Source of the DNA: Candidatus Poribacteria bacterium
GTDB taxonomy: Bacteria > Poribacteria > WGA-4E > B28-G17
Assembly (NCBI GenBank): GCA_021162805.1
Contig: JAGGXZ010000149.1
Location: forward strand, 1 to 44,215
DNA: 44,215 nt
Reading direction: 5' to 3'
Within the stretch, counting starts at the first letter, position 1; every line of letters starts with the position of its first letter. The notes below the pieces were generated by a model. That model did not search any database. It had not been told where the DNA came from and saw only the letters and a program-made list of their open reading frames with translations. Below, piece by piece: positions 24,286 to 29,222 of the stretch. The position numbers and the translations under genes are program-made.

Positions 24286-24307
24286 GGGGCGGATCTCACT
24301 CCGCCCC
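24286..24307. terminator. Hairpin between convergent groEL and eutN-like genes
   Basis: An 8-bp perfect stem GGGGCGGA/TCCGCCCC with a 6-nt loop follows the groEL stop by 4 bases and overlaps the end of the convergent EutN-like gene. There is no T-run in either direction, so it may act as a weak bidirectional terminator or protect the 3' ends. Confidence 0.5.
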
Positions 24308-24580
24308 ATCCGCCAGATCTACCCTGTCTATTATACCTATGACCAATTCTCTTATGGGCGCACAGTCCAGCTTGAACACCTCTCTCGCAACGCCCGGTCC
24401 TGCCCCTACCATGACTATATCCCCTTCACCTGCCCCGACATAATCGATGGCTATCGTGCTCTTCCCATGGGGCTCCATCGTATGTGGGTCCACAGGTTGA
24501 ACCAATAACAGCTTGCGGCTCCCATAAGCGCTATGTTTGGCAACTGATACGACTTTACCGATAACCTTGGCTATATACAT
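24296..24580 (-). CDS. EutN/CcmL-family microcompartment vertex protein
   Basis: 94 residues. It opens MYIAKVIGKVVSVAKH and continues LLLVQPVDP, STIAIDYVGAGEGDIVMV and GPGVARE, the exact motif order of EutN/CcmL/GrpN pentamers that cap the vertices of bacterial microcompartments. No hexameric shell proteins (BMC-H or BMC-T) or encapsulated enzymes are nearby, so either the shell genes lie elsewhere or this protein has another role. The start is set at ATG 24580, where the family begins; the longer reading to 24616 adds 12 non-conserved residues. It has its own promoter candidate over the stop codon of the upstream gene. Confidence 0.85.
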   Translation of the reverse strand: MYIAKVIGKVVSVAKHSAYGSRKLLLVQPVDPHTMEPHGKSTIAIDYVGAGEGDIVMVGAGPGVAREVFKLDCAPIRELVIGIIDRVDLADGAE

Positions 24581-24614
24581 CCCACACCCACCGGCTCGAG
24601 TAATCTGTCTCCAC

Positions 24615-24643
24615 AATATACAATTTCAAGCCTCCGAATTCAA
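24615..24643 (-). promoter_or_regulatory. Promoter TTGAAT-N17-TATATT for the EutN-like gene
   Basis: On the minus strand TTGAAT (24643-24638) contains the TGA stop of the dockerin protein gene; after 17 bp follows TATATT (24620-24615). Confidence 0.5.
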
Positions 24644-26814
24644 GGTCGGATCAGACCGACGACCTTTCTCAATATGATCGCCGCATCCTCCCTCTCGACC
24701 TTTCCGTTACCGTCTACATCGGCCGATCGGATCTGTATCATGTAAAGGTTTTCGTATCCGAGGATATATCTAAGCACCAAAGAGGCGTCGTATGCGGTGA
24801 TTTCACCGTTGAGACTGACATCCCCCATCTCAGGCGGTCCGATCGAGTTCGGAAAGCCCGGGGTTCCAAACGGCTCCAAGCTCGGGTCCCAATTGGCGTC
24901 ATCTCCTCCGCCGATGGAGCTATCGCCGACGTTGATCACCTGGGAACATCTTCTTTCAAGCGTCCTATCGGTGCCGTCCGCACCTTTTTTATCCCAACTT
25001 AACCTGTAGATAAGCCCATCCTGAACCCTACCCACATCGTCCTTAAGCCAGAGCACAAGCCCTTCGGCAGGGCTGTAGCTGTTGATCAGAGATAATCCCT
25101 TCAATTTAAGGATCGTAACGTCCGGCGGCACTGAGGGGTATATCGAGCGAAACGTCGCCTCGTCCGTTCGCGCCAGGATCAGATATCCATGGCCTGGGAT
25201 GACCGCTTCCGGCAGCTCGATCTCCCTCGATGTGGTTATCAGCTTCCATCCGCCGACGTTCACCGGATACCCGTTTAGATTATAAAGCTCGATGAATTCA
25301 CCCTGAGAGTCCCTCACCGATCCAGGGTTGGGATTTATCTCATTTAGGACGATCCCTTCCGAGAGAAGATTCGACCAGATACCTCTGCGCTCCGATCTCG
25401 CCTTCACCTCCAGGTCTTCCCAGGCGGAGAAGTTCAGCATGCTGTTTCTGAAGAACATCCTGGAGGCGAGTCCCTCGCTCAGCAGGGTAGCATTCAGGTT
25501 TTCGCCCTCCCATATCACGACACATAACAGCCTGTTATAATTATCCCGCTGGAACCTCTCATCGGAGCTCATCATGAGGATCACGCGCTTGTCCAACGTT
25601 TTATCCAATAGGGATTTCGCCTCCAGAGCAAAAGGTTCGGGATTTTCGTTGGGGCCGTTTATCTCCGGAGCATTGATCCCAACCAGGCGTATAACCTCTT
25701 TCCTCCCATCATCCAGGAGCACCGAGATGGTATCACCATCATAGACCGCTTTGACCTCGCCTTCCATCTGAACGGCGTTCTCCATCTTGATCAGATCCGT
25801 CTCGGATTGCGCTCCGCCAGGCGACCGGAACACGTGGGATCCATAGCTGCTGATCGGGATATGATGTTCGGCCCCCTTCATTTCAGATTCGCCGAGCTTC
25901 ACAGTTGCGTCGCCGCGAGCGATGATGATATATCCCAGGCCGGGGGAGATGAGGGTTTCACCTAAGGTATTGCCGGGGGATGGGATATAGGATCTGAATT
26001 TCCCCGTTTCGGGATCGATCCAGATGATGGCGGAGATCTGGCCTCCTGACATCCTTGACAGTTCCTCCATTCTCAATCCCAACCTTGCGGCGGGATAGGC
26101 AGAGATCAGGTTCAATCCCCTCCTGAGCTCGATAACGTTCCGCCTCCAAGGCATGCCGCGAAGCTCGATATGTTTGGCTCTTTTCACTGAGATCAGATAT
26201 CCTTCGCTTCCATCCACCATCTGATCCTCCTGCCCGGGCCTGTAGATTTTAAATCTCCGATCGGATGGATCGAGGCGAATGATACAGTTCAGATCATCCC
26301 CTATCATATCGGCCAGATCTCCAAGCTTCATCCCATCGGGCGGATCAAGGGGGATTGAGATGAGGTTTAGACCGGCTCGCAGATTTAGCGAGATGGTGTG
26401 CAGGAAGGTCACCGAACCCGAATCGATCTCCGGCGTTATCGTCTCATCGAACAGGGGCCGTTCGACGGATATCTCGCCCCTCATCCCCGGCTCGGCTTCC
26501 CCGGATAGGATCAGATGAAGTCTCAGCAGCTCACCCTCTTCCATCGGCACAGGAGAGGCGAGAGCCACCCTGATTCCGTTGGTTCCGGAAGCGCTGAGGA
26601 GGAGGGCATCCTGGGGAACCATCTTCCCAGCTTCAACCCCATCGCATGATACGAGGTCTGGATCAAAGGAGAGAATCATCTGACAGGCGATAGCGCCCCC
26701 GAGATCAACCCTCACCTCAGCGGTTGTATCCTCGCCCGGAACCCCCCATAGATCGGGGAGGTCGATAAAGATGGAGGGGATGAAGAGAAGAAAGGATAAC
26801 ATCCCCCATAACAT
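24640..26814 (-). CDS. Secreted cohesin / thermonuclease / lamin-tail / dockerin protein
   Basis: 724 residues with an unusual domain chain. A signal-like N-terminus precedes a cohesin-like domain (about 25-138, MILSFDPDLVSCDGVEAGK). Two related modules of about 85 residues each open with (R)AGLNLISIPL and RRGLNLISAYP. A staphylococcal-nuclease-type domain (about 350-482) keeps key positions: VYDGDTISV with D361, IRLVGINAPE with R376, a Glu at 393 or 398, and NYNRLLCVV with R428. A lamin-tail domain (about 486-600) contains VLNEINPNPG and EFIELYNLNG. A C-terminal dockerin (about 662-724) has two calcium loops, GDVSLNGEITAYDAS and ADVDGNGKVEREDA. It is probably an extracellular nuclease that can both offer and use cohesin-dockerin contacts. 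The ATG follows AAAGGAGGG. Confidence 0.85.
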   Translation of the reverse strand: MLWGMLSFLLFIPSIFIDLPDLWGVPGEDTTAEVRVDLGGAIACQMILSFDPDLVSCDGVEAGKMVPQDALLLSASGTNGIRVALASPVPMEEGELLRLHLILSGEAEPGMRGEISVERPLFDETITPEIDSGSVTFLHTISLNLRAGLNLISIPLDPPDGMKLGDLADMIGDDLNCIIRLDPSDRRFKIYRPGQEDQMVDGSEGYLISVKRAKHIELRGMPWRRNVIELRRGLNLISAYPAARLGLRMEELSRMSGGQISAIIWIDPETGKFRSYIPSPGNTLGETLISPGLGYIIIARGDATVKLGESEMKGAEHHIPISSYGSHVFRSPGGAQSETDLIKMENAVQMEGEVKAVYDGDTISVLLDDGRKEVIRLVGINAPEINGPNENPEPFALEAKSLLDKTLDKRVILMMSSDERFQRDNYNRLLCVVIWEGENLNATLLSEGLASRMFFRNSMLNFSAWEDLEVKARSERRGIWSNLLSEGIVLNEINPNPGSVRDSQGEFIELYNLNGYPVNVGGWKLITTSREIELPEAVIPGHGYLILARTDEATFRSIYPSVPPDVTILKLKGLSLINSYSPAEGLVLWLKDDVGRVQDGLIYRLSWDKKGADGTDRTLERRCSQVINVGDSSIGGGDDANWDPSLEPFGTPGFPNSIGPPEMGDVSLNGEITAYDASLVLRYILGYENLYMIQIRSADVDGNGKVEREDAAIILRKVVGLIRP

Positions 26815-26846
26815 GGATGCCCTCCTTTCCCCGCCATGCTGAAACG

Positions 26847-26913: not shown

Positions 26914-27969
26914 TCAATATGCCCCATATTCATGGACGAGCTCGATCACGTATTTATACCTCTCGAAGCTGACGTTATCGGGAACGGAATGATCGGAATG
27001 GTAGATATAGCCGCCTCCCTTTTTGGCGAAGGTGATTTTGGTTTTGATCTCCTCCTCGATCTCGCGCGGGTCCTCAGCAGCCATTTTCCGCACGTCTATC
27101 CCGCCCATAAAAGCCAATGTATCGCCATATGATTTTTTAAGCTCGATGAGGTCCATCCCCGCTTTCACCTCCAACGGTTGAAGACATGTGAACCCCGCCT
27201 CGATATAAAACGGCACGAATGCCCTAACGCAGCCGCAGCTATGAAGAATAATCGGCATGTTTTTGCTCTTGAAGAAATCGCAAAGCATCTTGTGATATGG
27301 GAAGAGCAGCTCTTTATATGCGGCCGGGGAGAAGAGGGTGGCGTTTCTATATCCGTTATCGTCGAACAGGAAAGCGCCGTCGAACTCGAATCCTTTTGCC
27401 ATCATCTCCTCGGCGCATGCGATCACGAGCTCGGCATTGGCGCGAAACATATCTTTCACCCATTCCGGATCATCCAGCATCGCCATGAGCAGATTAACGG
27501 AGCCGACCAGGCCTTGGGTCCTGTCATAACCCACCGCCGCGTTGAAGGTTACGAAATATCCCTGTTCCCGCGCTTTTTTACACGATTCAACGGCATTCCA
27601 ATTTATCCTGGAGTCGTTATAGGTCATCCGTTCCCTGTACTCCTCCCAAGTCCTGCGGTCTCTGATGAGGAAATCCCTCTTTTCGGGTGTAGAGGTACGG
27701 TGTTTCCAGTTTTTGACCACAGCTCCGTCCGAGTCGCGCACGATCCTGTATTCCTCCGTCTCCTCTATCACCTCGGTTGGAAGCTGGAGTGTTATATCGG
27801 CGCCGAAGCCGACGAATTCATATCCGAAGTACTGGTGTGGGGAGACACCCTGGGGTAACCCTTCCCTATGCCATCTGGTTGCAGTGGTGCCCCAGGGTGA
27901 ATCGTGTATCGGAACCCTATCCGGCTCTTTATGATTGAGGGCCAGGAGGACCCTCTCCCTTGAAGTCAT
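26914..27969 (-). CDS. Uroporphyrinogen-decarboxylase-family protein (MtaA/CmuA-like)
   Basis: 351 residues from ATG 27969 (preceded by GAGGTGTGAGG); a longer reading to 28017 would run into the upstream gene. It opens TSRERVLLALNHKEPDRVP, the typical start of the URO-D superfamily branch that includes corrinoid-dependent methyltransferases. It carries ILHSCGCV, the His-x-Cys zinc-type motif used there for thiol activation. The heme-pathway enzyme's N-terminal substrate motif is not evident, so a role in heme synthesis is unlikely. A corrinoid-activating ferredoxin-like protein is encoded at 36483-38354, but no corrinoid protein is nearby. Substrate unknown. It begins 2 bases after the stop of the GERHxH repeat gene, so the two are co-transcribed. 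Confidence 0.75.
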   Translation of the reverse strand: MTSRERVLLALNHKEPDRVPIHDSPWGTTATRWHREGLPQGVSPHQYFGYEFVGFGADITLQLPTEVIEETEEYRIVRDSDGAVVKNWKHRTSTPEKRDFLIRDRRTWEEYRERMTYNDSRINWNAVESCKKAREQGYFVTFNAAVGYDRTQGLVGSVNLLMAMLDDPEWVKDMFRANAELVIACAEEMMAKGFEFDGAFLFDDNGYRNATLFSPAAYKELLFPYHKMLCDFFKSKNMPIILHSCGCVRAFVPFYIEAGFTCLQPLEVKAGMDLIELKKSYGDTLAFMGGIDVRKMAAEDPREIEEEIKTKITFAKKGGGYIYHSDHSVPDNVSFERYKYVIELVHEYGAY

Positions 27970-27971
27970 CC

Positions 27972-29222
27972 TCACACCTCTATGACCTGTCCGTATTGGC
28001 TTATCGCCGTCTTCCATCCTTGATAATGCATGTGTCTTTCGCCCACGATCGGCTGTGTGCTGACCACCTCGACCGTTCCGGTCACATCCTTGAGCCTATC
28101 GTCGGGCACCGTCCAGAACCCCATCGGTCTGGCTCTGCCGGAGAACTGATGTCTTATCTGAGCGGTGTTTCTATCGCGGGCCACGAAGGTGATGATGGCG
28201 TCAGCTTCGCCGACGTTGAGAAACCTGAACCAATCGTAGGCGCCGGAGTAGACCTCGGGGAAGAAGAGCCTCTTGCCGACGGAACCCAGCTCCAAAGCGG
28301 CCCCTGGGAAGGAAAGCACCTGTGTGCCGCCGTGCTGATGTCTCTCGCCGACGATATACTGGTCGCTTCTGACCTCCAGGGAGACATCTATGTTTTTGAC
28401 AGCCTGATCCACGGGTGGTACCCAACACTGGAAGGGCCTGAGGGTTCTATCCTGAGACCACACCGTCTTGCCGTTTTGATCTCTGGCGATAACGGTGACC
28501 TTCGCCTCTTTCGGCCCGACATTAGTCAATATCACCCAATCGTACCACTGTCCCGGAGCTATCTGGCCGAAGAAGATCCTTTTCGGCTCACCCAACGAGC
28601 CGTCTATCACCTGTCCGTATTGGCCGACGGCGCTTTTACCTCCTTGATAGTGGGAGTGTCTTTCGCCCACGATCGGCTGTGTGCTGACCACCTCGAGCGT
28701 TCCCGTGACGTTTCTGATCTGGGCATCGGAAAGCGTCCAGAACCCGCTTGGCCTGATCCTGCCCGAAAACTGCCCCACCACTCTGCCCGTGTTTCGATCA
28801 TGCGCTATGACGTTGACTATAGCGTCTGCCTCACCGAGGTTGAGAAACCTGATGAAATCACCTATGTAAGACGCGACCTCCGCGAAGAAAAGCCTTTTGC
28901 CCGCTGTGCCTAACTCAGGAGCAGCGCCGGGAAAGTCCAGGACCTGGGTACCAAGGTGACAGTGTCTCTCACCCAATATCGGCTGATCGCTCATGACCTG
29001 AAGCGAGACGTCTCCTCTTCTATCGGCCACCCCTTCGGCCGGGACAACCCAGCACTGGAAGGGTATAAGGCTCTTCTCAGCCGACCAGACGGCTTTGCCG
29101 TTTTGATCACGCGCTATAGCTGTAACCTTTGCCTCTTTAGGCCCGACGTTGACCACCTCGACCCAATCTCTCCAGCCGCCGGCGGCTATCTGAGGGAAAT
29201 AAATCCTGTTCGGTGCAGGCAT
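27972..29222 (-). CDS. Fourfold GERHxH repeat protein, unknown function
   Basis: 416 residues built from four related units of about 100 residues in the order A-B-A'-B'. Each unit is beta-rich and ends with a (Q)PIVGERHxH-type motif (GERHCH, GERHSH, GERHQH, GERHMH). The two halves are very similar at DNA level: for example, the same stretch of about 40 bases appears at 28030 and 28658. There is no signal peptide; the protein starts MPAPNRIYFPQIAAGGW. Similar 'QPIVAER' beta-sandwich modules occur in secreted proteins of other phyla, but I do not recognise a named family. The invariant His-x-His suggests metal or ligand binding at four sites. Co-transcribed with the URO-D family gene. Confidence 0.75.
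   Translation of the reverse strand: MPAPNRIYFPQIAAGGWRDWVEVVNVGPKEAKVTAIARDQNGKAVWSAEKSLIPFQCWVVPAEGVADRRGDVSLQVMSDQPILGERHCHLGTQVLDFPGAAPELGTAGKRLFFAEVASYIGDFIRFLNLGEADAIVNVIAHDRNTGRVVGQFSGRIRPSGFWTLSDAQIRNVTGTLEVVSTQPIVGERHSHYQGGKSAVGQYGQVIDGSLGEPKRIFFGQIAPGQWYDWVILTNVGPKEAKVTVIARDQNGKTVWSQDRTLRPFQCWVPPVDQAVKNIDVSLEVRSDQYIVGERHQHGGTQVLSFPGAALELGSVGKRLFFPEVYSGAYDWFRFLNVGEADAIITFVARDRNTAQIRHQFSGRARPMGFWTVPDDRLKDVTGTVEVVSTQPIVGERHMHYQGWKTAISQYGQVIEV

Follow-up and report, generated by a model that had tools for sequence, protein, structure and literature searches.

A cohesin- and dockerin-bearing protein with a staphylococcal-nuclease domain from Candidatus Poribacteria

Cohesin-dockerin (Coh-Doc) assemblies have been described chiefly in connection with polysaccharides. 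In Ruminococcus bromii, the amylosome enzyme Amy4 has a cohesin and a dockerin on a single secreted chain; the dockerin shows Ca2+-dependent binding to cells, and the authors of that study proposed that Amy4 may self-aggregate by means of these two modules (PMC5814915). Paenibacillus guangzhouensis encodes 28 monovalent dockerin-cohesin adaptors, and a catalytic domain is present in many of them (PMC11557425). In clostridial-type adaptor scaffoldins, the dockerin and the cohesins of one chain differ in type, and their binding partners are other proteins (PMC4959524). In ANME archaea, non-cellulosomal Coh-Doc proteins can combine a dockerin with several cohesins in a single polypeptide, and the authors of that work caution that the presence of a module alone does not reveal its function (PMC9012536). 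The lamin tail domain (LTD) has been suggested to help direct proteins to membranes, and the LTD of the nuclease ExeM is dispensable for most of its extracellular DNase activity (PMC6085458).

Here, we describe a protein encoded in a 44,215-nucleotide stretch of Candidatus Poribacteria DNA (contig JAGGXZ010000149.1; referred to as the window, to which coordinates refer). It has the features of an Amy4-like enzyme-adaptor, namely, a catalytic domain, a cohesin, and a dockerin on one, probably secreted, chain, an arrangement in which the Amy4 enzyme doubles as a scaffoldin (PMC5814915). Amy4 is a GH13 amylase with CBM26 from a cultured gut bacterium, whereas the protein described here combines a staphylococcal-nuclease (SNase) domain with an LTD and a repeat domain that we name gln. 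As in this genome, dockerins and cohesins share chains in P. guangzhouensis, where nearly every dockerin is accompanied by a cohesin and often by an enzyme domain as well, but glycoside hydrolases and SLH anchoring in that organism contrast with a nuclease and FlgD_ig/Por_Secre tails here (PMC11557425). A large Coh-Doc repertoire without a cellulosome is shared with archaea, including ANME; the examples described in the available part of that report are scaffoldin-like or transport-binding, and no nuclease is mentioned there (PMC9012536). A nuclease joined to a lamin tail is also found in a Thermobacillus composti plasmid thermonuclease family protein and in Shewanella ExeM (PMC6085458). Unlike the protein described here, the T. 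composti match has no visible cohesin or dockerin, and ExeM, for which neither module is reported, is of the EEP class rather than an SNase. We found no published dockerin-SNase fusion in the open-licence literature, where papers naming dockerin, cohesin, and staphylococcal nuclease dealt, in their available parts, with engineered surface display or adhesion. The enzyme is unusual, but it fits into a type of surface-assembly network already known and does not represent a new kind of system.

Domain organization of the nuclease protein

The open reading frame (ORF) spans positions 24640 to 26814 on the minus strand (724 amino acids, with an ATG start and the stop codon included), exactly as delimited in an earlier, sequence-only reading of the window. 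A Shine-Dalgarno-like AGGAGG (26821 to 26826, minus strand) lies 6 nt 5' of the ATG, and no other in-frame ATG, GTG, or TTG occurs between the upstream stop codon and this start. The GC content of the gene is 54.2%, against 54.5% for the window. From the N to the C terminus, the chain consists of a leader, a cohesin, a pair of gln repeats, the SNase domain, the LTD, and a dockerin. The earlier reading had placed a cohesin, a nuclease, a lamin tail, and a dockerin on this one chain. All four hold: the latter three pass their Pfam cut-offs, and the cohesin, which scores below its own, is accepted by way of a profile built from the same genome and its predicted fold. The layout of cohesin, dockerin, and SNase in this ORF is confirmed as real, with the corrections given below.

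The leader (residues 1 to 15; 26770 to 26814, minus strand) is short and hydrophobic, with a mean hydropathy of about 2 over its 15 residues, and may be a signal peptide. Together with the nature of the other domains, it suggests that the nuclease is probably exported. Export is not certain, since the leader is short and has no basic, positively charged n-region.

The SNase domain (residues 351 to 483; 25366 to 25764, minus strand) was assigned by Pfam, by a phmmer search of the PDB, and by alignment of the active site. PF00565 matches residues 375 to 482 over profile positions 2 to 107 of 107 (2.1e-18; 67.2 bits against a cut-off of 21), and phmmer aligns residues 355 to 482 with S. aureus nuclease. 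NCBIfam returned NucI and EcnA, both far under their cut-offs. The main catalytic positions had been described as kept, which stands for D19, D21, R35, E43, and R87 of S. aureus nuclease (D359, D361, R376, E384, and R428 in the ORF) but does not extend to D40 and T41, which align with N381 and A382. Four of the five residues of the active-site set D21, R35, D40, E43, and R87 are thus retained, and the D40-to-N replacement removes the side chain of one Ca2+ ligand. The change at T41 is minor, because T41 contributes a main-chain ligand in S. aureus nuclease. Judged from these residues, nuclease activity is likely, though not certain. A stand-alone SNase gene at C98 is the only other one found in this genome.

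The N-terminal domain (residues ~16 to 138; 26401 to 26769, minus strand) is a divergent cohesin. It does not reach the Pfam gathering score for PF00963 (11.6 against 24.1 bits; E value of 0.32). A profile built from 30 Pfam-detected cohesins of the same genome, however, matches residues 26 to 123 at 30.4 bits, and still gives 25.8 bits when one similar-looking copy is left out of the profile. hhalign pairs the domain with the cohesins of the genome at 95%, and an iterated search seeded by the domain alone recovers those cohesins in return. The combined alignment, used as a profile, matches solved cohesins in the PDB. Further, an AlphaFold2 (AF2) model computed from a 32-row alignment (pLDDT of 82.5) matches solved cohesins in Foldseek with a best E value of 1.5e-9 and TM scores of about 0.7 to 0.78; all 50 listed matches are to cohesins, alone or in complex, and among them is the non-cellulosomal Archaeoglobus fulgidus structure 2xdh. 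On this profile and model evidence, the assignment as a cohesin is sound, and we do not take the sub-cut-off Pfam score as a refutation, given the own-genome profile, the reciprocal search, and the fold match.

The C-terminal part of the chain comprises an extended LTD and a type I dockerin. The LTD (residues 484 to 660, with a Pfam core at 487 to 552; 24835 to 25365, minus strand) passes the PF00932 cut-off narrowly (34.9 against 34.3 bits; 2.1e-8), and relatives from the phylum align across its extended length. By analogy with ExeM, we assume that it may play an accessory role. The dockerin (residues 661 to 724; 24643 to 24834, minus strand) was identified by Pfam (PF00404, residues 664 to 717; 1.6e-9; 38.3 against 22.9 bits) and by two EF-hand-like loops, whose Ca2+-ligand positions are intact (D665, S667, N669, and D676 in one; D699, D701, N703, and D710 in the other).

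The gln repeats

Between the cohesin and the SNase domain lies a region overlooked in the sequence-only reading (residues 140 to 312; 25879 to 26397, minus strand). It consists of two repeats of ~85 amino acids with no Pfam match, each containing the motif GLNLIS once (at residues 148 and 233). The AF2 model of this region is confident, with block means of 81 to 97 over construct residues 1 to 170. A fold search of the PDB and of viral structures gave no match at an E value of 0.001 or below, and the gln profile run against PDB sequences gave a single, chance-like match (0.014). Within the phylum, the profile matches in all 81 genomes searched, often as a lone repeat, and in several proteins scanned gln sits N-terminal to an FlgD_ig/Por_Secre tail. 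This chain reveals a repeat domain without prior description, for which we coin the name gln, present across the phylum.

The gln domain also occurs at many other loci (e.g., L058, L064, L093, and L096). An early version of the profile matched inside the LTD, which we put down to profile drift. Likewise, cohesin and gln fragments were aligned separately after aligning them together had misplaced cohesins onto gln.

Relatives and the cohesin-dockerin repertoire

A relative (G001 C112; 423 amino acids up to the contig end), which belongs to the same family but to a different genus, shares 54% identity and the order of gln end, SNase, LTD, and dockerin. The conservation of this part across genera indicates that it is not an assembly chimera. 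The contig of the relative stops inside gln, before the point where a cohesin might lie, so that the layout compared across genera runs from the end of gln to the dockerin. When 85 genomes of the phylum were searched with the SNase-LTD portion, only this gene and its relative had both parts in one full-length match. In the T. composti plasmid thermonuclease, one match covers residues 331 to 553, that is, the SNase domain and part of the LTD, so the SNase-LTD pairing exists elsewhere.

As the sequence-only reading had proposed to check, other genes of the genome do carry these modules, with 23 dockerin and 31 cohesin matches in Pfam. Its premise that cohesins and dockerins usually lie on separate proteins fails in this genome. 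Own profiles combined with Pfam identified 26 chains with a cohesin, at least 18 of which also have a dockerin (a lower bound, as contig or locus ends truncate some of the chains); 8 have a cohesin only, and a further 10 chains have a dockerin only. The pairing is thus the local norm and by itself suggests that the protein is an adaptor or a relay within a large Coh-Doc network, without specifically indicating self-assembly of the nuclease. Across the phylum, dockerins occur in all 83 genomes searched and cohesins in 82.

A recurrent layout in the genome is a dockerin followed by a cohesin and an FlgD_ig/Por_Secre tail. The 21 Coh/Doc chains scanned contain Ig, PKD, beta-propeller, beta-helix, LRR, and CARDB domains, with one M23 peptidase and one DUF3160 protein. 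None of the 21 has a glycoside hydrolase catalytic domain, so the hallmark of a cellulosome, dockerin-borne glycoside hydrolases on cohesin scaffoldins, is absent among them; no second nuclease was found among the network proteins scanned. Several cohesin-bearing chains end in an FlgD_ig/Por_Secre tail, which the nuclease protein does not have. Two are candidate anchors: a 592-amino-acid protein (C108) with two cohesins, gln, and the tail, and a 3093-amino-acid protein with three cohesins, a gln pair, and the tail. The latter belongs to a cluster of Coh/Doc proteins (L093 and L094) along one 40-kb contig, C229, of the same genome. Elsewhere in the genome, a secreted-looking protein of 231 amino acids (L073, 4451 to 5143, plus strand) has nothing but a leader, a single cohesin, and a single dockerin, making it a minimal Coh-Doc adaptor.

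Possible roles and gene neighborhood

We consider it reasonably probable that the protein is a secreted, Ca2+-dependent SNase-type nuclease working in a non-cellulosomal Coh-Doc network, either on the cell or outside it. The C-terminal dockerin would bind a cohesin of another, surface protein, leaving the N-terminal cohesin free to take the dockerin of a further protein, such that the protein would be enzyme and relay at once. The LTD and gln may be accessory or spacer modules. The likely benefit would be to keep the cleavage of extracellular DNA or RNA close to the cell, on its surface, where it could serve to capture nutrients or turn over the matrix. Of this picture, the domains, the predicted cohesin fold, the active-site residues, and the Coh-Doc repertoire of the genome are observed; export, activity, partners, and benefit are inferred.

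The sequence-only reading, whose interpretation is partly supported, raised the idea of a self-assembling nuclease, in which the cohesin of one copy binds the dockerin of the next to form chains or aggregates. The two modules do lie at opposite ends of the chain with gln, SNase, and LTD between them, as this would require, and Amy4 offers a proposed precedent for aggregation through a protein's own modules (PMC5814915). More than 30 cohesins and more than 20 dockerins in the genome are available as alternative partners, however, and in clostridial-type adaptor scaffoldins the dockerin and cohesins of a chain differ in type and have other proteins as partners (PMC4959524); self-assembly is unlikely in our view. 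A wider proposal, which we hold to be doubtful, is a Coh-Doc complex specialized for extracellular nucleic acids, a DNA/RNA analogue of the amylosome in which the nuclease would serve as enzyme and linker, with either its own copies or the lineage's Coh-Doc surface proteins as assembly partners. More generally, a nuclease acting as an adaptor as well would extend the Coh-Doc principle to nucleic acids, and it would offer a testable case for the purpose of large non-cellulosomal Coh-Doc repertoires in uncultured bacteria.

An SNase domain that only binds DNA or RNA, the protein then tethering extracellular nucleic acid to the cell surface, is improbable. It would fit the substitution at position 40, where the cross-genus relative and 11 of 12 other SNases of the phylum compared have D, and the network partners scanned, most of which are non-enzymatic surface proteins (mostly with Ig, PKD, or beta-propeller domains). 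D21, R35, E43, and R87 are all retained, however, and N is also found at position 40 of L118, another stand-alone SNase from the phylum. Also improbable is a vestigial cohesin and/or dockerin, inherited by domain shuffling in a module-rich genome and no longer binding: the cohesin is too divergent for Pfam, and the authors of the ANME study urge caution in inferring function from modules alone (PMC9012536), but both dockerin loops keep their metal-ligand positions, the dockerin is present in the cross-genus relative, and the modeled cohesin has a complete cohesin fold.

The genes next to the nuclease gene, for EutN/CcmL, URO-D, and GroES/EL, lend no functional support to its reading as a network nuclease. 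The EutN/CcmL microcompartment vertex gene is isolated (24296 to 24616, minus strand) and would lie 59 nt 3' of the nuclease gene if it starts at the ATG at 24580. We considered it as an operon clue and treated it as unrelated, as inspection by eye of the ORFs on the 6.2-kb contig of the relative showed no such gene. The genome has three EutN/CcmL genes and five BMC shell-domain matches, the others being on different contigs. Elsewhere in the window, two long ORFs, neither with a Pfam match, overlap on opposite strands (27960 to 28913, plus strand, and 27972 to 29222, minus strand).
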